Positions 6,213-19,318 of a DNA stretch of 34,008 bases are shown in pieces (position 1 is the first letter of the stretch; each line of letters opens with the position of its first letter). The notes beneath the pieces were generated by a model, which was given only the letters and a program-made list of their open reading frames with translations, was not told the origin of the DNA and made no database searches. The position numbers were made by a program, and so were the translations under genes. This DNA comes from Planctomycetaceae bacterium (GTDB taxonomy: Bacteria; Planctomycetota; SZUA-567), in NCBI GenBank assembly GCA_021205245.1, contig JAJPXZ010000197.1:1-34008 (forward strand). The letters run 5' to 3'.

Positions 6213-6997
6213 ATGCCGGAGCCCCAAACGCCCGTCGCAATCATATCGGATGTACACGGTAATCTTGAGGCCCTGACCGCGGTCATTGAAGACATTCGCG
6301 GTCAGGGAGTCGGAACCACATATACAACCTTGGCGACACAGTGGGCTATGGTCCCGACCCGGCCGCGTGTATCGATCTCGTCGACGCCGCCTGTACGGTC
6401 AACCTGTGCGGCAACCACGATTACGCCGTCCTCTTCGATGCCGAGGGGTTCAACCCCATCGCCAAGAAGTCGGTCGATTACCACCGCAAAGTGCTCCAGC
6501 CAACGCCGGAAAACGAAGACTCCGAAGCGGTGCGGCGTTGGGAATGGCTCGCCAATCTTGAACCGATGCACGAGGGCAAGGGCTTTGAAGCCATGCACGG
6601 ATCGCCCAGACAGCCCATTACCGAATATGTGCTGCCGTCCGACCCGGAGATGGACCCGCTGAAGATTGTCGACATTTTTTCCGCCATGAGTCAGCACATC
6701 GCCTTTGTCGGCCACACGCATTTTCCCGGCGTGCTTGAGGAAAACAACGAGTCTTTCCTTATGCTTTCCGCGGTCGCCAGCCGCTATCGCATCAACCCCG
6801 GCACCCGTGCCATCGTCAACGTCGGGTCGGTTGGCCAGCCCCGCGACCGGAATCCCCGCTCCTGCTACGCCATTTACGACGGCGAGAGCATCCTCTACCG
6901 ACGGGTTGAATACGATGTCGAAAAGACGGTCGGCAAGATTTTGAGTCAACCGGACATTCACCCCGCCAGCGGGCTTCGCCTGCGCGACGGCCGGTGA
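6213..6997 (+). CDS. Metallophosphoesterase (calcineurin-like), frame broken near 6320
   Basis: This is a phosphodiesterase-fold hydrolase of the Metallophos_2 (YfcE/MJ0936-like) type. The first part (from the ATG at 6213) gives AIISDVHGNLEAL, the first metal-binding motif. One frame over, the sequence continues IYNLGDTVGYGPDPAAC (GD motif), LCGNHDYAVL (GNHD/E motif), AMHGSP and FVGHTHFPGVL (GHTH). All metal ligands are therefore present, but split by a single missing base close to 6320 (GGAGTCGGAACC). The second part alone is open from 6341 to 6997. A GAGAGGGAG ribosome site precedes 6213, 66 bp after the Nfu gene. The substrate is unknown; relatives act on phosphodiesters or nucleotides. 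A strong terminator follows. Confidence 0.85.
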
Positions 6998-7351: not shown

Positions 7352-8275
7352 TTACCGTTCCCGAATCACCATCTCCACCCCAAACCTCCCGGCGACATCG
7401 TCTAGCCAGCGTTTGGCATCGCCGGGATAGCCGGCGGTGGGTTTGAGATCGGCGATGCGATCGCAAAACCACGCGTTCAACTCCGCCATCGCCCGTTCGC
7501 GCGCATACTTTGCCGCCAGGCTGGCGAGGGCGGTGACGAAAGAGTCGCGGTCGGCCTTGGGCCGGAAGATGATTTCCGCATCGCCGCCGGTGCGCTTGAG
7601 GATATAGCGCGAACTCTCCGCTCCCGCCTCCATTTCCCGAACCCACAAGCCGGGAAAGAGGCCGGTGAGGAAGGGGAGGTAATCGTTGCGGCCACCCTGT
7701 TTGTCGACAACGACCAGCAGGCGATCATCGGCAAAGCGTTCGACCAGCCGGACAATGTGTCTGCCGGTCTCCATCAGGAGGGCCTGGTTCTTGTTCAGGC
7801 CGTCGGCGTAGCGCTTGTTCAAGGCCGGTTCGTATAGAAGCGCCGCCTCGAGGTGAACCGGCTCGACCCCGGCCCCGTCGCAGCAGCCCCGCACCCGCGA
7901 CTGGACAAAGGCCATGTCGTCGATGCCGACGTGGACCGGAAACGGATCGATGGCGCAGCTGTAGCACGGATGCGCGGCTTCGCCCCCGAGCACGGTCAGG
8001 ATCGGCACTGCCCGCCCCTCGGTCAGCCAGCCGAGTGCGCCGAGGGTTAATTCCATGGCGGCGAGGCCACCGGTCCGGTAGAGGATTTTACTGTCCGAGA
8101 CGACAGCTCGCCGCTCGCCTTTGAGCCAGCTCCGGTCGACGCCGGAGGCGAGGCGTTCCCACGGCGAGTCCGGCCGCCAGCCCCGAGGCACAGCCAGCGC
8201 CGCCGACGCGGTCGCCAGCGGACCCACTACCGGACCAAGGCCGGCCTCGTCGATGCCCGCGACTATAAAACCCAT
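7352..8275 (-). CDS. RNase HII-like (RNase H superfamily) protein, divergent
   Basis: The 307-residue protein resembles RNase HII, which nicks at ribonucleotides in DNA. It has the opening GIDEAGLGPVVGPL (D9, E10), SDSK at 60-63 like the DSKKL motif, an Asp at 191 (VVVDKQGGRNDY), and DSFVTALASLAAKYARERAM (244-263), the AAASILAKVxRD-like helix with D242/D244 before it. The acidic residues therefore look retained. However, the canonical GRG that reads the RNA-DNA junction is GLG (G12-L13-G14), and about 100 extra residues (100-190) separate the motifs. Activity on RNA-DNA is thus uncertain. The ATG overlaps the upstream ispH-ubiA gene by 13 bp, so the two are coupled. Confidence 0.75.
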   Translation of the reverse strand: MGFIVAGIDEAGLGPVVGPLATASAALAVPRGWRPDSPWERLASGVDRSWLKGERRAVVSDSKILYRTGGLAAMELTLGALGWLTEGRAVPILTVLGGEAAHPCYSCAIDPFPVHVGIDDMAFVQSRVRGCCDGAGVEPVHLEAALLYEPALNKRYADGLNKNQALLMETGRHIVRLVERFADDRLLVVVDKQGGRNDYLPFLTGLFPGLWVREMEAGAESSRYILKRTGGDAEIIFRPKADRDSFVTALASLAAKYARERAMAELNAWFCDRIADLKPTAGYPGDAKRWLDDVAGRFGVEMVIRER

Positions 8276-9975
8276 AGCGCCCCTCCCGCCAACACTCCCG
8301 CGCCGATGCCCAGACAGTCGACAGCCGCCTGCAGCCAAACCGCGTCCAAGACCGGCCGCAGCCGCAGCCGCCGCAGGAGCCACAGCCCCCACAGCGGAAC
8401 GGGAATCGTCGGGACAGCTCCGAAAAGCGACAAGCACAAGGCTGCGATAAACGACCCCCTCGCCAGCCGCCGTGCGGGAAGCAACCCAAGCTGGCCCGGC
8501 AGGGTGCCGATACCCATCAGCCTGTCGCTGGCCACGTCGTGCAAATCGACAAGCAACGTGCCGCCGAGGCAGACGAAGGCGGCCCACAGTCCGGCTCCGG
8601 CCACGCCGTACCACGGCGCGCCGCCGAGTCCGACCGGCACGGCGACAAGGACAGCCCAAGCCAACGCCATCACCCAGTTCCGCAGGGTGGCGGCGGCGAT
8701 GCGAAAATGGCTTCCGTCCGCCATCGCCCGGGTGACATAGGCGTAGAGGGCGGTCACGAGGACGGCGGCGGTGAAAAGAACGAAGTCGCCCGGACCAGTC
8801 AGGGCGGCGCAGGCGAGGCACAGCGCGGCGGCAGCCCAGGCCAGCCCCAGGAGCGCTCCCCGCCGTTTTTGGTAAAAAAGATCTGCCCCCGACCAGCGCC
8901 GCGCTTGGGCATAAACAGGGCTGCGTCGATTCAACGTATGGGCAAAAAAGACGTAGGCACCTACAGCCACGGCCAGCAAGGGGATGGCCGAACCGAGTAG
9001 GGCGCATTGCGCCGCCACAGCCAGCCCGGCGGCTGACAAAGCGGTCGTCACCCGCGCCCGGGCCATCTGCGCCAGGCAGCGCCGCGCCAGGTCGAGCGGC
9101 CCGGAACGGCCCCAGGGGCGGAGCCGGTTGACGACCTCCTGGGTGAGCCAGCCCGGCGTGCTGGCTCCGGATGTGACCCCGACAGTGCGGTAACCGGCAA
9201 AGTCGTCCCGGCGGAGATCGTCCGCAGTTTCCACCAGAATAGCCGGTTTGCCGCGCGCCATCACTGCCTCGGCAAGGCGGCGGGTGTTGGCGCTGTTTTT
9301 GCCGCCCACCACCACCACCGCTTCGGTGCGGTCGGCGAGGCGTTCGGCTTCGCGCTGGCGCTCGTGGGTGGCGCGGCAGATCGTGTCTTTCACCGTCGCG
9401 GTCGGAAAGCAGCGTCGAAGCGTCGACGTCATCTCCTCGAACAGGGCGACATTGAAGGTGGTTTGGGCCAACAGCAGGACGTCGCGTTCGGGCGGAATAT
9501 CGAGTTCTTCAATATCGTCCGGTCCAGCCACGACCCGGCAGTCTGCGCCGGCGCAGGCGGCAACGGCCTTGACCTCGGCGTGGTCGGCATCGCCGGCCAG
9601 CAGGACGAGCGCTCCCCGCGCCGCCGCAGCGGCGACGAGTCGCTGGTTATAGGCGACGTGAGCACAGGTGGCGTCGACCAGGGTCAGGCCACGGTCGAGC
9701 CATTCCTGCCGCTGATCGGGCGAAACGCCATGGGCGCGAACCAGCATGGGTTTTTTCGTCGTATGCGGACTGTTCGGATCAGCGGAATGGGCCCGTTCAT
9801 CATCGGCGGTGGGTGTGATGCCGTGCAGGGCGAGTAGCTCGACTGCCGCGCCATTGTGGACCAGCGGGCCGGCGCTTTGCAAGCCGCCGTGCTGTTCCGA
9901 TGCGGCCAGGGCAATCCGCATGGCGCGTTTGACCCCGTCGCAGAATCCGGATATATGGGCGATGATGACGCGCAT
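8263..9975 (-). CDS. ispH: Fusion: IspH (HMBPP reductase) + UbiA-type prenyltransferase
   Basis: Residues 1-290 are IspH, the last step of the MEP pathway (HMBPP to IPP/DMAPP). The three cluster cysteines C12 (GFCDGVKRA), C104 (DATCAHV) and C200 (DTICRATHERQ) are present. So are H40 (GPLVHNG), H132 and E134 (DHAEV), T172/T173 (AQTTF) and GVTSGASTP. Residues ~300-570 are a multi-helix UbiA-like membrane domain with LRNWVMALAW and the second aspartate motif DLHDVASDRLMGIGTLP. The first NDxxDxxxD motif is not recognisable; NRRSPVYAQARRW stands in its place. One continuous frame covers both. The gene is 11 bp after the proline-rich gene and overlaps the RNase HII-like gene. The fusion suggests prenyl units may be channelled to a membrane acceptor; the acceptor is unknown. 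Confidence 0.85.
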   Translation of the reverse strand: MRVIIAHISGFCDGVKRAMRIALAASEQHGGLQSAGPLVHNGAAVELLALHGITPTADDERAHSADPNSPHTTKKPMLVRAHGVSPDQRQEWLDRGLTLVDATCAHVAYNQRLVAAAAARGALVLLAGDADHAEVKAVAACAGADCRVVAGPDDIEELDIPPERDVLLLAQTTFNVALFEEMTSTLRRCFPTATVKDTICRATHERQREAERLADRTEAVVVVGGKNSANTRRLAEAVMARGKPAILVETADDLRRDDFAGYRTVGVTSGASTPGWLTQEVVNRLRPWGRSGPLDLARRCLAQMARARVTTALSAAGLAVAAQCALLGSAIPLLAVAVGAYVFFAHTLNRRSPVYAQARRWSGADLFYQKRRGALLGLAWAAAALCLACAALTGPGDFVLFTAAVLVTALYAYVTRAMADGSHFRIAAATLRNWVMALAWAVLVAVPVGLGGAPWYGVAGAGLWAAFVCLGGTLLVDLHDVASDRLMGIGTLPGQLGLLPARRLARGSFIAALCLSLFGAVPTIPVPLWGLWLLRRLRLRPVLDAVWLQAAVDCLGIGAGVLAGGALWVL

Positions 9976-9986
9976 GAAAGGTGGGG

Positions 9987-11138
9987 CTAGTCCTGCAATC
10001 GAATCAGCCGGTGGATAATTTCGTCCCTGGCTTCGCCGGCATTCTCGAGTTCCGGTTCGAGTTCGCGCAGCACCTCCTCCATGTCCAGCTTCCGGTTCGC
10101 CAAGAGGTACGCCCCCTTGAAGAAGGCGGAACCGCGCGCGCCCGGCAGGACGGCGGTGACGACCGGCCCGGCCTCGGCGGAGGTGATGTGGAGATAGCGT
10201 TCGGCCGCGTCGCGGTCGAGGTCGGCGAGGTCGGCCGGGATGCTTTCGGTTTTCACATGCTCAAAGCCGGTGGACTGGTGGTCCGGAAGCGGGGTCAGGA
10301 AAACCAGGGTGCCGATTTCGGGAATCGCGGCCAGTTCTTTTTCAAGATCGTATCCTGAGTCGAGCCAATACACCCCGTCCCCCAAGACTTCAAGATTGGC
10401 AATCCGGGGCAGCGGCGCGCTGGCAGGTACCGGAGCGTCCTCGCCTGTTTCGGGGGTAGCCACCACGAGCGAGCCGGACTCGTCCGGTTGGGTCGCGGCG
10501 GGTTGTTCGGTCGATTCCTCGTCTTCAGTCACGACAGGCGCGATGGTATCCTGCTCGGGTTGGGACGACGGTTCGTCAATGGCCTCAACTTCTTCCGGTA
10601 CGACGATGGCTTCAATCGCTTCCGCTTCCGGCTCGGGCAATGCCTCGGCCGGGGGCGGTACTGTTTCGTCGGCAGGTACGACTTCTTCAGGTACAGGTTC
10701 GGCCGGGGTCGGTTCTTCTGGTATCACTACCGGATCCGCTTCCACCTCCGGCTCGGCCGGGACAGGCGTTTCTTCAACCGGAACAGGTATGGTCACCGGT
10801 TCAGGCGGACGCAGTGCGCCCGTGGGGACGGACTCGCCGTCGGCGGGCGTATGAATCCTGTCCAGGGTCGCCGTCGGGTCGAGCGGCTGCGGGACAGGCA
10901 GCGGCACGACAACCGGTTCGGGCTGGACCGGCGTCTCGGGCAGCGGCGGGTCTTCAGGCGCCACTGCCTGGGCAGGCGGCGGTTCCGTCGGCGGTTCGAG
11001 TGGTATGGAAACGCTGGGTTGCAAGGGTTGGTGCGCCGGCAATTGCGGCGGCACGGCGTAGACCAGCAGAACGATAAGCAGGAACAACGCCAGTATATGA
11101 GCGGCCAAACGGCTCTTGGTCCCGATCTTGCTGCGCAT
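9987..11138 (-). CDS. Membrane-anchored Pro/Glu-rich protein with tyrosine-phosphatase-like C-terminal domain
   Basis: I choose the ATG at 11138 (383 residues) because GGAGGA lies 8 bases upstream and the longer frame adds only an implausible N-terminus. Residues 11-29 (LAAHILALFLLIVLLVYAVP) form a TM anchor. Residues ~45-244 are Pro, Glu, Val and Thr repeats, a TonB-like periplasmic stalk. The last ~139 residues (from 245) look like a dual-specificity phosphatase fold: VYWLDSGYDLEKELAAIPEI, IGTLVFLTPL, ESIPADLADLD, then PVVTAVLPGARGSAFFKGAYLL where PVLVHCxxGxxRTG would be. The Cys position is V330 and the Arg position G336, so it should be inactive. The fold call is my own alignment by eye and moderate in confidence. 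It starts a three-gene operon with a perfect TATAAT. Confidence 0.75.
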   Translation of the reverse strand: MRSKIGTKSRLAAHILALFLLIVLLVYAVPPQLPAHQPLQPSVSIPLEPPTEPPPAQAVAPEDPPLPETPVQPEPVVVPLPVPQPLDPTATLDRIHTPADGESVPTGALRPPEPVTIPVPVEETPVPAEPEVEADPVVIPEEPTPAEPVPEEVVPADETVPPPAEALPEPEAEAIEAIVVPEEVEAIDEPSSQPEQDTIAPVVTEDEESTEQPAATQPDESGSLVVATPETGEDAPVPASAPLPRIANLEVLGDGVYWLDSGYDLEKELAAIPEIGTLVFLTPLPDHQSTGFEHVKTESIPADLADLDRDAAERYLHITSAEAGPVVTAVLPGARGSAFFKGAYLLANRKLDMEEVLRELEPELENAGEARDEIIHRLIRLQD

Positions 11139-11172
11139 GTGCACATTCCTCCGGAAATCATGATCCCTCGGA

Positions 11173-11201
11173 ATTATAGGCATCTGGACGGGATTCTGAA
11201 A
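11173..11201 (-). promoter_or_regulatory. Promoter of the minus-strand operon (11138 to 7352)
   Basis: The minus strand reads TATAAT at 11178-11173, 35 bases before the ATG. The -35 region at 17-bp spacing (TTTCAG, 11201-11196) is weak. It is divergent from the gph promoter. Confidence 0.5.
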
Positions 11202-11218
11202 GAGAATTGTTTCAGAAC

Positions 11219-11247
11219 TTGACCCGCAAATCAGGCAGCGGGATAAT
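11219..11247 (+). promoter_or_regulatory. gph promoter (sigma70-like)
   Basis: TTGACC (11219-11224), 17-base spacer, GATAAT (11242-11247): each box matches consensus at five of six bases. Transcription should start near 11254, just before the hairpin at 11259. Confidence 0.6.
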
Positions 11248-11258
11248 AGGCGCTTCAC

Positions 11259-14825: not shown

Positions 14826-16676
14826 TCACCCCGATGGGAAGAGCATTTCTTCCGCGAAGGCGTGCTGGAAGTCGTCGCGGCCGGAGAGTTCGACATATTC
14901 CACCCGCCCGAGGAGGGCGTCGGCGCGCTCCCGTTCGGCGACTGACAGCAGGTACAGGCGCGTCCCGGCGAGAGAGGCATTGCCGACCGCTTCGACCCGC
15001 GTAGCGGGAATGCCTTCCGGCAGCAGTCCCACGCCGACGGCGGATTCGGGCCGGAGGTACGAGCCAAAGCCGCCGGCCAGGAACACCCGGTCGACCCCCT
15101 CGGCTGTGACACCCGCGACGCCGAGGAGGACCTTCACCCCGGCCGCCACCGCGCCCTTGGCGAGTTGGAATTCGCGCACGTCGCGTTGGGTCAGAGCCAC
15201 CCCCGCGTCGCCGTGACCGGTTGGGCGCTCGAGCCAGAAGGCCATGCCGTCCTCGCCTTCATGGAGGCGTTCCATCAGGTCGGCCGAGAGGCCGAGCTCT
15301 TCCGCCTCGTCCAGGTCCAGCATCCTGCCGCCTTCGTCAACGATGCCAATGCGAAGGAGCGCCGCAACCGCGTCCAGGAGGCCGGTGCCGCAGATGCCCT
15401 TTGCCGGGGCGGTGTCGCCGATAACTTTCACGACGAGCCGGTCGTCGATCACGTCCAGCCAATGGATGGCTCCAGGCTGGGCGCGCATGCCTTGGCTGAT
15501 ACGCGCGCCTTCGAAGGCGGGACCGGCGGCGGCGGCGCAGGCATAGACGCGGCCGTTCGCCGCCAGGACGATTTCGCCGTTGGTGCCGACGTCCAGAAAT
15601 AGGGTGACGCCGGGCAGGTCGGCGACGTCGTGGGCGGCGATGCCGGCGGTGATGTCGCCGCCGACATAAGCGGCGATGTTCGGGACAATCAGGAACAGGG
15701 GCGATTGCCCGCCCCAGCCGAGCGCCGACGCCGGAACCGGCGGCACGGCCCGGTAACAGGGGATGAACGGACTGACCGCCAGCGCACCCGGATCGATCCC
15801 GAGCAGCAGGTGGTTCATGACGGTGTTGCCGCCGACGGCGGCGAGGAGGATATCCCCATCCGCACCGCCTTCACGTTTGGCATCGTCCGCCAGGGCGCGG
15901 ATGGCGTCGAGGGCGAGGAGGCGCATTTCCTCCAGCTCGCCCGCGCCCTTTATCGCATAGTCCATGCGGCTGATGACGTCGTCGCCGTGCAGGTTCTGCG
16001 GATTGGCGCGGCTGGTCACCGCCAGCATTTCGCCACTGTCGATGTCGCACAACGCCGCCGCCATGGTGGTGGTGCCGAGGTCGACGGCGAGGCCGAGTCG
16101 ACGGCATTCTGTCTCCCGGCCCGTCACCGCCAGCACCCGATCACCCAAGCCGGTGACGCGGCAGGTAAACCCGTTCTGCCGCAGCACGCCGGGCAGGGTG
16201 GTCAGGATGCGGGTGTCGAAGACAAGCGTATCGGCCCCATCCATGCCTGCGTCGGCCAAGCCTTTTCGCAACCGGTCGAGATCGTTTTGCTGATCCTCTT
16301 TGGTCGGTTTCGCCAGGACAACGTCCACGCTCCATAGCCCGCCGCCCAAACCCTCCGCGCCGCGCCCGCCGATGTCGGTCAGGACCACTTCCGGCCGGTC
16401 CACGTCCGGGTCGGCCAGGGTAAGGTCCGCCATTACCTCCGCCATGCACGACGCCCGCCAGCCGTCGGCGAGCAGGACGGGCGACAGGCAGTTCCGCTGC
16501 CGGGTATCGGCCGGGACATCGCCGGACACGACATGGATGCGGCATTTGCCGCAGGTGCCGTTGCTGCCGCACGGGGTGGGCAGGGTAAAGCCGGCCAGGC
16601 GGCAGGCGTCGGACAGGCGCGTCCCGGCCGGGACGTCGACGGATTTGCCCGAAGGCGCAAAGGCGATGGTGGGCAC
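14826..16676 (-). CDS. Corrinoid-activation (RACE) protein: 2Fe-2S ferredoxin + ASKHA (DUF4445) domain
   Basis: The 616-residue protein has an N-terminal plant-type 2Fe-2S domain (residues 1-85) with C36, C42, C45 (CGSNGTCGKC) and C77. The long ASKHA/DUF4445 ATPase region follows from ~195: LGLAVDLGTTTMAAALCDI, AVGGNTVMNHLLLG, LFLDVGTNGEIVL, GICGTGLLDAVAALL and VFLAGGFGSYL. The architecture is that of reductive activators of corrinoid enzymes (RACE/RamA-like without extra clusters), which use ATP to reduce Co(II) of an inactivated methyl-transferring corrinoid protein. The start is GTG at 16676 with AAGGAG 9 bases upstream. The gene begins 18 bp after the decarboxylase-like gene. No corrinoid protein or methyltransferase is in the window, so its client is not known. 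Confidence 0.92.
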   Translation of the reverse strand: MPTIAFAPSGKSVDVPAGTRLSDACRLAGFTLPTPCGSNGTCGKCRIHVVSGDVPADTRQRNCLSPVLLADGWRASCMAEVMADLTLADPDVDRPEVVLTDIGGRGAEGLGGGLWSVDVVLAKPTKEDQQNDLDRLRKGLADAGMDGADTLVFDTRILTTLPGVLRQNGFTCRVTGLGDRVLAVTGRETECRRLGLAVDLGTTTMAAALCDIDSGEMLAVTSRANPQNLHGDDVISRMDYAIKGAGELEEMRLLALDAIRALADDAKREGGADGDILLAAVGGNTVMNHLLLGIDPGALAVSPFIPCYRAVPPVPASALGWGGQSPLFLIVPNIAAYVGGDITAGIAAHDVADLPGVTLFLDVGTNGEIVLAANGRVYACAAAAGPAFEGARISQGMRAQPGAIHWLDVIDDRLVVKVIGDTAPAKGICGTGLLDAVAALLRIGIVDEGGRMLDLDEAEELGLSADLMERLHEGEDGMAFWLERPTGHGDAGVALTQRDVREFQLAKGAVAAGVKVLLGVAGVTAEGVDRVFLAGGFGSYLRPESAVGVGLLPEGIPATRVEAVGNASLAGTRLYLLSVAERERADALLGRVEYVELSGRDDFQHAFAEEMLFPSG

Positions 16677-16694
16677 TGCGGCTACTCCTTGCGT

Positions 16695-17858
16695 TTATGG
16701 TTTGGTGTCGCCCCGATGCAACGGCTCGCCGCCGCTTACGAGGAAATCACGGAAATTGCAGCCCATCTCGGCAAAGGGGATTGTGGGCCGTCCCAGATCT
16801 TTACGGAAGCCCCGCTTGATTCTGACCTCGATAAACCACGGCCCCGCTTCGTCCCGGAACCGGCGGACAGCGTCCTGCAGTTCGTCCGTTTCCTCAACTC
16901 GCGTCGTCATGCGGTAGCCGCAGGCGCGGGCCATGGATTCGAGATCCACGTCAGCGCCGAGGTTGGGCTGGCCGCCGACCGAATCGTGGACGCCGTTGTT
17001 CATGAGGATATGCACCAGGTTGGACGGCTTCCGACTGGCAATAAGCGGCAACGCGCCCAGGTGCATAAACAGCGCGCCGTCGCCGTCAAGGCACACGACC
17101 TGCCGGTCCGGCTGTGCCATCGCCGCACCAAGGGCAATCATCGACGCATGGCCCATCGCGCCGGCGTTGAGGAAATCGCGCTCGTGCGGCTGGCCCGACG
17201 CTTCGCGGAGTTCGAACAGTTCGCGCGACGCCATGCCGGTCGACGCGACAACAGGGCAGGTCGGGTCGAGGTTTTTGATGATTGTCCGGATAGCGTCCTC
17301 GCGGGTGAGGCCGGGCGTCTCGTATCCGGCCGGCACGGTCGGCGACGGCGTAAAGCAGCCGTGACGGAAAAGGAGGACATGCGGCCCGGGGTTTGTCTGC
17401 ATGTGTTTGAAGGTTCGGTCGAGGGTCTGTTTCGTTTCGTCCAGGTCGGGGGTGATGACGGCGCAGGGGATGTCCAGACATTCGAACATCGTTTGCGTCA
17501 CCTCGCCCTGGCGCAAGTGTTGCGGTTCGTCCTTGCGCCCCGGTTCGCCGCGCCAGCCCACCAGCAGCAGCATCGGGACCGCGTACACGCTCGGGTCGGC
17601 CAACGACAGCATTGGGTTGAGAGCGTTGCCGATGCCGCTATTCTGCATATAGACGGCGGGGATGTGGCCGGTGCCGAAGTAATGCCCGGCCGCCAACGCC
17701 ACCGCGCCGCCTTCGTTATGGGTCAGCACATGGCCGCCTTTGGGCGGATGCTGATAGACGTAATTGCACAAGCTTTCCAAAACGGTGTCAGGCACGCCGG
17801 CGTAGAAGTCAACGCCACGGCCTTCGAGTTCGCGGCAAAAATCGGCAGGATCATACAT
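16695..17858 (-). CDS. Phosphonopyruvate (or sulfopyruvate) decarboxylase-like ThDP enzyme
   Basis: The 387-residue ThDP enzyme begins FYAGVPDTVLESLCNYV and has HNEGGAVALAAGHYFGTG with E49, the Glu that activates the thiazolium. AVYMQNSGIGNALNPMLSL and WRGEPGRKDEPQH follow. The cofactor motif is GDGALFMHLGAL, and about 28 residues after its GDG comes MNNGVHDSVGGQP. This order and length match AepY/Ppd phosphonopyruvate decarboxylase, which makes phosphonoacetaldehyde; sulfopyruvate decarboxylase is the main alternative, usually shorter or split in two. PEP mutase and an AEP transaminase, which would confirm phosphonate synthesis, are not in the window. GGAGG precedes the ATG. It is the first gene of the minus-strand operon with RACE and the Maf fusion. 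Confidence 0.88.
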   Translation of the reverse strand: MYDPADFCRELEGRGVDFYAGVPDTVLESLCNYVYQHPPKGGHVLTHNEGGAVALAAGHYFGTGHIPAVYMQNSGIGNALNPMLSLADPSVYAVPMLLLVGWRGEPGRKDEPQHLRQGEVTQTMFECLDIPCAVITPDLDETKQTLDRTFKHMQTNPGPHVLLFRHGCFTPSPTVPAGYETPGLTREDAIRTIIKNLDPTCPVVASTGMASRELFELREASGQPHERDFLNAGAMGHASMIALGAAMAQPDRQVVCLDGDGALFMHLGALPLIASRKPSNLVHILMNNGVHDSVGGQPNLGADVDLESMARACGYRMTTRVEETDELQDAVRRFRDEAGPWFIEVRIKRGFRKDLGRPTIPFAEMGCNFRDFLVSGGEPLHRGDTKP

Positions 17859-17923
17859 GCGAATTTCCTCCAGAAAACCCTCACCGTGCTACGGTTACTC
17901 ATTACGATACAACCCACCCCAAA

Positions 17924-17986
17924 CGTCACCCCGGCGTGCGGACCTCCGCCAGCGGGGTTAACAGGCGGTTCGGCCGGGGTCCACGG
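17924..17986 (+). repeat. Dispersed intergenic repeat, copy 4 (pair B, left)
   Basis: Same element as at 7088, from CGTCACCCCGGCGTGCGG to GGCCGGGGTCCACGGG. The centre reads CCGCCAGCGGGG. It lies 65 bp upstream of the decarboxylase start codon. Confidence 0.85.
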
Positions 17987-18054
17987 GGCTGAACGGTGAA
18001 TACACCTATCTTATTTGAACCGATTGTTCGAGTTTGGTGTTATCAATGTTTATT

Positions 18055-18118
18055 CCCGTGGACCCCGGCCGAACCGCCCGTTTTTCCCGCTGGTTTACGC
18101 CCGCACGCCGGGGTGACG
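18055..18118 (-). repeat. Dispersed intergenic repeat, copy 5 (pair B, right)
   Basis: Reverse-complement copy, from CCCGTGGACCCCGGCCG to GCCGGGGTGACG. The 68-bp spacer 17987-18054 is AT-rich (TTATTTGAACC, TATCAATG) and contains no gene. It ends 19 bp before the stop side of the methyltransferase gene. Confidence 0.85.
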
Positions 18119-18136
18119 TTTGGGGAAGGCGCAGCG

Positions 18137-19318
18137 TTAGCGGCTCACCCGCGCAAACAGCGCTTTGAGGTAACGCCCTTGCGGAAAATCACCCGCCACC
18201 GGATGGTCCGCCCCCGGCCCGAACGTCCCGAAGATGGTCAAGTTGATACCGGACTCGGCCGCAGCCTTGCGGACCGCCTGCCGCCAGCGCTCCTCAGGCA
18301 CCGCGCCGGAGCAACTGCAGGTCACGAACACACCGTTATGGCGCACCGCCTTGAGGGCGGCCTTGTTCATATCGTAGTAGGTCTTGAGCGCGCGTTCGAC
18401 ATCATCAATCCCGGCCGCCAGCTTCGGCGGGTCCAGCACGACGAGGTCGTGGTCGCGTTTGGCGGCGGCCCGCTCGCGCAGTTCGTCGAAGACGTCCCGG
18501 TGGAGGAGGTCGATGCCGCCCGCGTTGTTGAGGTCGCAGTTCGCCTTCGCCATCGCCAGCGCTTCTTCGTCCAGATCCACCGCTTCCACCCGCTTCGCGC
18601 CGCCTTTCCAGGCCGACAGGGCAAAGCCGCCCGAGTAGCAGCAGCAGTCGAGCACGTCCCGTCCCTTGGCCAGGAATGCCACCCGCGCGCGGTTGTCGCG
18701 TTGGTCGAGGAAAAAGCCGGTCTTGTGGCCGGTCAGGAAATCGACCCGATAACGGATGCCGTTCTCGGTAATGTCGACATGGCCGGGCGCGGGGAAGCGT
18801 TTCTCCAGTGGGGCGAAGGAGACGCCTTCTTTTTTTGCCGCATTCGCGTCGCCACGGACCACCGCCCGGCAGCCCGGGTAGAGTTCCGCCAGGGCGGTGA
18901 CCAGTTCATCCGCCATATAGAGCCAGCCCGCCACATACGGTTCGATTAAAAGCACGTCGGCAAATTTGTCGATAACCAATCCAGGCAATGCGTCCGCTTC
19001 GGCGTGGACGAGGCGGTAGCTGTCGCCCGACCGCGCCAGGTCGATGGCTGATTCGCGGAGCGCCTTGGCGTCCCGCAGCCGCCGCAGGAAAAAGGCGGTG
19101 TCGACTGATTCGTTCTTGTCCTCGGTGAGCATTCGCAGGGCGATGGTGTTTTCCGGATGGTAAAAGGCGCGGCCGACAAAGCCGCCGTCGCGGTTCCGGA
19201 CTTCAACCAGCGACCCGGCTACGAGGTCGATGCCGCGCGGGGCCTGGGTCATTTTCTTGAAAATCCACGGATGCCGCGAGTTGCGCGGCGTCTTCAGCGT
19301 TACCAGGGGGAGGAGCAT
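18137..19318 (-). CDS. Class I SAM-dependent rRNA (RlmI-type) methyltransferase
   Basis: The 393-residue protein has an N-terminal PUA domain (about 1-75: KTPRNSRHPWIFKKM, DLVAGSLVEVRNRDGGFVGRAFY). A Rossmann methyltransferase follows: GHKTGFFLDQRDNRARVA, then LDCCCYSGGFALSAWKGGA (motif I), VEAVDLDEEAL, DLVVLDPPKLA (motif IV with DPP) and VTCSCSGAVP. This is the YccW/RlmI family, which methylates a cytosine of 23S rRNA (m5C1962 in E. coli). The CSCS in the position of the catalytic Cys fits an m5C enzyme. AAAGGAAA precedes the ATG. It diverges from argB. The exact target is by homology only. Confidence 0.9.
   Translation of the reverse strand: MLLPLVTLKTPRNSRHPWIFKKMTQAPRGIDLVAGSLVEVRNRDGGFVGRAFYHPENTIALRMLTEDKNESVDTAFFLRRLRDAKALRESAIDLARSGDSYRLVHAEADALPGLVIDKFADVLLIEPYVAGWLYMADELVTALAELYPGCRAVVRGDANAAKKEGVSFAPLEKRFPAPGHVDITENGIRYRVDFLTGHKTGFFLDQRDNRARVAFLAKGRDVLDCCCYSGGFALSAWKGGAKRVEAVDLDEEALAMAKANCDLNNAGGIDLLHRDVFDELRERAAAKRDHDLVVLDPPKLAAGIDDVERALKTYYDMNKAALKAVRHNGVFVTCSCSGAVPEERWRQAVRKAAAESGINLTIFGTFGPGADHPVAGDFPQGRYLKALFARVSR

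Follow-up and report, generated by a model that had tools for sequence, protein, structure and literature searches.

Planctomycete IspH–UbiA fusion proteins carry a conserved UbiA-superfamily membrane domain that lacks the first Asp motif

Why would an enzyme of isoprenoid precursor synthesis be joined to a UbiA-type membrane domain, and is such a joint genuine? The question is raised by a single open reading frame of 570 amino acids (8263–9975, minus strand) in the stretch of DNA analysed here, a 34,008-nucleotide window comprising positions 1–34,008 of contig JAJPXZ010000197.1 from a Planctomycetaceae bacterium (assembly GCA_021205245.1; genome G000). Its N-terminal IspH (LytB, HMBPP reductase) domain spans residues 1–286 (9118–9975, minus strand) and continues, with no stop codon between the two, into a UbiA-superfamily membrane domain at residues 290–570 (8266–9108, minus strand). 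A sequence-only reading of the window had described this architecture, had suggested either channelling of the product to a prenyltransferase or a non-catalytic membrane anchor, and had taken the fusion to be undescribed.

On the last point it was mistaken. Rao, O'Dowd, Li, Wang and Oldfield (2015, Chem Sci 6:6813, PMC4746011) reported 47 IspH–UbiA "Rosetta stone" fusions, primarily from Desulfobacterales, and assigned the UbiA part to PT_UbiA_5, with a function unknown to them. They noted separate UbiA/MenA genes and stated, as an observation rather than as a requirement for membership, that the fused UbiA part has two DXXXD motifs. The full-length protein could not be expressed; membrane localisation and a local supply of IPP/DMAPP were proposed, and prenyltransferase activity was favoured (PMC4746011). 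Since that paper reported the fusion together with localisation and local supply, the architecture and both ideas of the sequence-only reading were already in print. Our literature search returned no further IspH–UbiA paper except a citation of this one. The window protein, with a UbiA-like domain in frame at the C-terminus of IspH, is a planctomycete member of this known family. It shares with the published fusions the order of the two domains, a setting in anaerobes and a UbiA part distinct from the menaquinone enzyme, which quinone makers carry separately. By contrast, the paper covers Desulfobacterales and other sulfate reducers, with planctomycetes unmentioned; going by its description, two DXXXD motifs are present there, whereas planctomycete members have only the second; and the lineage of the window is one in which neither a second UbiA nor a quinone pathway was detected.

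The N-terminal half has the features of a working IspH. It matched Pfam LYTB (PF02401) over residues 3–285 (250 bits, E = 3e-74), TIGR00216 at 225 bits (cut-off 188) and solved IspH structures, 3dnf and 3ke8 among others, with E values of about 1e-38 to 1e-41. All of the residues named in the earlier reading were present: the three cluster cysteines (C12, C104 and C200) and, within the active-site set, H40, H132 and E134, which are accompanied by H82 (in RAHG) and T172/T173 (in QTTF). The further motifs KNSAN (226–230) and SGAST (269–273) complete the His, Glu, Thr, Ser and Asn residues of the active site, within a match to the whole domain. Among NCBIfam models, the best score came from that of the IspH–RPS1 fusion of clostridia (NF000907), likewise an IspH with a C-terminal partner in anaerobes; its partner, however, is a soluble set of ribosomal protein S1 repeats that has no relation to UbiA. 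The genome also encodes IspG, placing the protein in the MEP pathway, and one polyprenyl synthase was found. Because the catalytic residues are complete, the fused copy is the sole IspH detected and IspG is present, the IspH half should be active and would, judging from sequence and pathway, almost certainly make IPP and DMAPP.

Could the fusion instead reflect an assembly error or frameshift that joined two neighbouring genes? The assembly of the window does carry a frameshift in a nearby gene, and the genome is fragmented (203 contigs). Against this, about 60 other planctomycete genomes, which represent at least 20 family-level groups, have the same single open reading frame, and some of these genomes are assembled as a single contig (G113, G233, G261 and G270). 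Carriers include congeners, other members of the family, order and class, and distant planctomycete families; in the phylum as a whole, the domain profile matched 97 of 392 genomes drawn from it (E 1e-8), and about 60 of these matches were fused to IspH in one frame. In unfused relatives, IspH ends at about residue 288 and is adjoined by no separate or split UbiA gene at the locus. The sequence-only reading had held that relatives with separate genes and a stop codon at the junction would mark an artefact; most relatives proved to be fused, and the unfused ones are not evidence of an artefact, since their ispH locus lacks the UbiA part altogether instead of carrying it as a separate gene, and the tree described below reads them as losses. 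With single-frame relatives on this scale, a joining artefact was ruled out, its chance being negligible. A scan of genome contigs returned just one match, to an 85%-identical relative (JAJQBO010000038.1), and a plasmid search for further full-length relatives, sulfate reducers included, returned matches to the IspH half only.

In a tree of 86 IspH domains, all 61 fused sequences clustered together with nine unfused sequences of the short type (SH-aLRT 93). On this tree the fused or unfused state changed seven times, versus a mean of 21.8 after shuffling. The simplest reading is that a single ancient fusion in Planctomycetota was followed by about six losses of the UbiA part, a number that is approximate, as the tree came from a quick search and has several open forks. 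One apparent loss lies within the genus of the window (G003); a second genome, G001, is likewise unfused at this locus, but its sequence was too short for the tree. Given these repeated losses, IspH does not need the UbiA domain. Two further cases were irregular. In G253 there were three IspH–UbiA matches (L090, L108 and a third locus), which may be paralogues or come from mixed strains, and in L125 (G297:C135) a frameshift falls inside the UbiA part, the remainder of which continues in another frame.

The C-terminal half is hydrophobic, with about 7–9 predicted membrane helices by hydropathy. In the window protein alone, the match to Pfam UbiA (PF01040; residues 374–532) scored 20 bits against a curated cut-off of 34.2, whereas the matches of its relatives were clear (51–71 bits). 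A profile of 15 related domains matched the C-terminal half of DGGGP synthase 6m31 (E = 8e-5), and profile–profile comparison with canonical planctomycete UbiA gave E = 3e-5 over 172 columns, with the second Asp motifs superposed. This homology over the membrane domain assigns it to the UbiA superfamily, in keeping with what had been proposed from sequence alone. A structure prediction made with AlphaFold from a two-sequence input (the window protein and relative A2) had a mean pLDDT of 44, too poor a model to support a bound ligand.

Like UbiA, MenA, DGGGP synthase 6m31 and chlorophyll synthase, the fused domain has the second Asp motif and a GxxTLPxxLG stretch. In the window protein this region (residues 477–497, DLHDVASDRLMGIGTLPGQLG; 8485–8547, minus strand) reads D477-x-x-D480-x-x-x-D484 followed by GIGTLPGQLG, and supplies the DxxxD of catalytic UbiA enzymes in the form of D480 and D484. 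Among 60 fused domains (L125 was left out because of its frameshift), D477 was conserved in 85%, D480 in 87% and D484 in all 60. The first Asp motif, which in prenyltransferases of the superfamily takes the form NDxxDxxxD or NRxxDxxxD, is gone. At its degenerate site (residues 349–363, NRRSPVYAQARRWSG; 8887–8931, minus strand), the leading N349, within FFAHTLNRRSPVYAQ, is the sole remnant in the window protein. The motif was absent from all 60 aligned fused domains; only this Asn is kept (92%), although one Asp is retained in some members as LNRFVD (for example, L112 and L117). The loss of the first motif and retention of the second had thus been read correctly. A second difference from prenyltransferases of the superfamily lies in the last helix, where Asp553 (8317–8319, minus strand) was conserved in 57 of the 60 domains (95%) as a signature of the clade.

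Standalone UbiA-like proteins of the phylum (L127, L128, L129, L130 and L133) are unfused and located away from ispH. With the fused domains they share an altered first motif (for example, LDRLVD within YNLDRLVD, or YILDRGID) and a Lys in the loop leading to the fifth helix; several also have DG in the last helix. Since standalone relatives show related alterations, the change in the first motif looks like a trait of the clade rather than a quirk of the window protein. Neighbouring genes offered no hint of function, either for two of these standalone genes (L127 and L128) or for L132, a typical fused gene.

The loss of the first motif, and the fact that the domain can be removed, are what would be expected if the UbiA half were a pure membrane anchor, holding IspH at the membrane with no ligand. 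An invariant Asp cluster and a polar signature kept across at least 20 families are, however, unexpected for such an anchor, and we regard it as quite improbable.

We then considered whether the domain might serve a quinone pathway. In the family and order of the window, neither MqnA nor MqnD was found, and no MenD match exceeded the curated cut-off; all matches fell far below it and probably represent different thiamine-diphosphate enzymes, acetolactate synthase for instance. Checking for further copies, as the sequence-only reading had advised, we detected neither a second ispH nor a second ubiA in G000. As this genome is about 85% complete, such absences are not proof, but they gain credibility from agreement among relatives: in G000, G002, G004, G006, G009, G018 and G036, no UbiA match other than the fused domain was obtained. 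Conversely, 11 near-complete genomes with the fusion, from other families, all had MqnA/D-type genes, and in 10 of these 11 a strong UbiA was also encoded separately (E 1e-46 to 1e-54). MenA, MqnP and UbiA serve a quinone pathway in the same genome; the fused domain does not share this trait. Because it is kept whether or not a quinone pathway is present, and because a separate UbiA is present in 10 of the 11 genomes with one, we conclude that it is not a quinone prenyltransferase; for the lineage of the window that role was rejected, and channelling to a quinone prenyltransferase is likewise unsupported there.

A different possibility is that the UbiA half is an active prenyltransferase of altered chemistry, using the second motif together with, for example, Asp553, receiving DMAPP, or prenyl diphosphates from further down the pathway, directly from IspH and transferring to a non-quinone acceptor. 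The invariant D484 and the near-invariant T491, G497, D553 and Y411 are typical of a kept active site, and the C-terminal half is similar at the profile level to DGGGP and chlorophyll synthases. Selection points the same way: between the window protein and that of G006, dN/dS was about 0.14 for each half (in other pairs dS was near saturation, making them less reliable), so that the membrane half is as constrained as IspH. Activity was also the view favoured by the 2015 authors (PMC4746011). However, the motif that is absent from every fused domain holds the diphosphate via Mg in known UbiA enzymes, the whole domain has repeatedly been lost, and no acceptor pathway was identified, with no quinone pathway detected in the window's own lineage. 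We therefore treat catalysis of this type as possible but unlikely. Its most far-reaching form, a new UbiA enzyme that works without the first motif, through the second motif and the last-helix Asp, and turns the IspH product, received directly, into a non-quinone prenylated lipid in planctomycetes without a detected quinone pathway, seems rather doubtful to us.

The reading that we prefer, with a probability of roughly 60%, is that a working IspH is joined to a ligand-binding membrane domain of UbiA type, the ligand being an isoprenoid (di)phosphate or lipid, and that this domain does not act as a classical two-metal prenyltransferase. The N-terminal half would be the cell's working HMBPP reductase, carrying out the last MEP step to yield IPP and DMAPP, and the divergent C-terminal domain would fix it to the cytoplasmic membrane. 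With the motif that holds the Mg-prenyl-diphosphate in classical UbiA enzymes lost, and the second motif and last-helix Asp kept under selection, a ligand of this kind is most likely bound at the remaining site, where it might help to place the enzyme, or provide feedback, close to the polyprenyl synthesis that lies downstream. That IspH is active, that the protein is attached to the membrane, that a ligand is bound and that classical catalysis is lacking are each inferred from the comparisons made here. Three observations weigh against this reading: an active site of altered type would explain the strong conservation of the second motif and Asp553 just as well; the domain has repeatedly been lost, so that IspH can do without it; and two DXXXD motifs in the sulfate-reducer members, as described by Rao et al., would favour catalysis there.

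Downstream of the fusion lies a divergent RNase HII-like gene (7352–8272, minus strand; PF01351, 38.6 bits), the ATG of which overlaps the fusion stop codon. The same gene follows ispH in fused and unfused relatives alike, and in several relatives of both kinds, as in the window, the ispH stop overlaps or abuts its start. Elsewhere in the window, a metallophosphoesterase gene (6213–6997, plus strand) is split by a frameshift and is one intact frame in the 85%-identical L033; the split is due either to misassembly or to recent pseudogene formation. On the other side of the fusion, a Pro/Glu-rich protein of 423 amino acids (9987–11258, minus strand) had no Pfam or NCBIfam match, and a similar protein is encoded upstream of ispH in unfused congeners and family members (L013, L020 and L022). 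Two consecutive open reading frames of 488 and 317 amino acids (16533–18949, plus strand) had no Pfam match; they may not be genes, since long open reading frames overlap them on the opposite strand.

What is new is the distribution of the fusion in planctomycetes, its history of gain and loss, the absence of the first motif, the Asp553 signature, the equal purifying selection acting on the two halves and the case against a role with quinones. These results carry a little-studied 2015 observation beyond sulfate reducers, into a second phylum in which the fusion has a deep history of gain and loss. They also narrow the function of the UbiA half, which is not the quinone enzyme and is under selection, although it can be dispensed with. 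Fused and unfused species that are close relatives thereby offer a natural comparison for the role of the domain.
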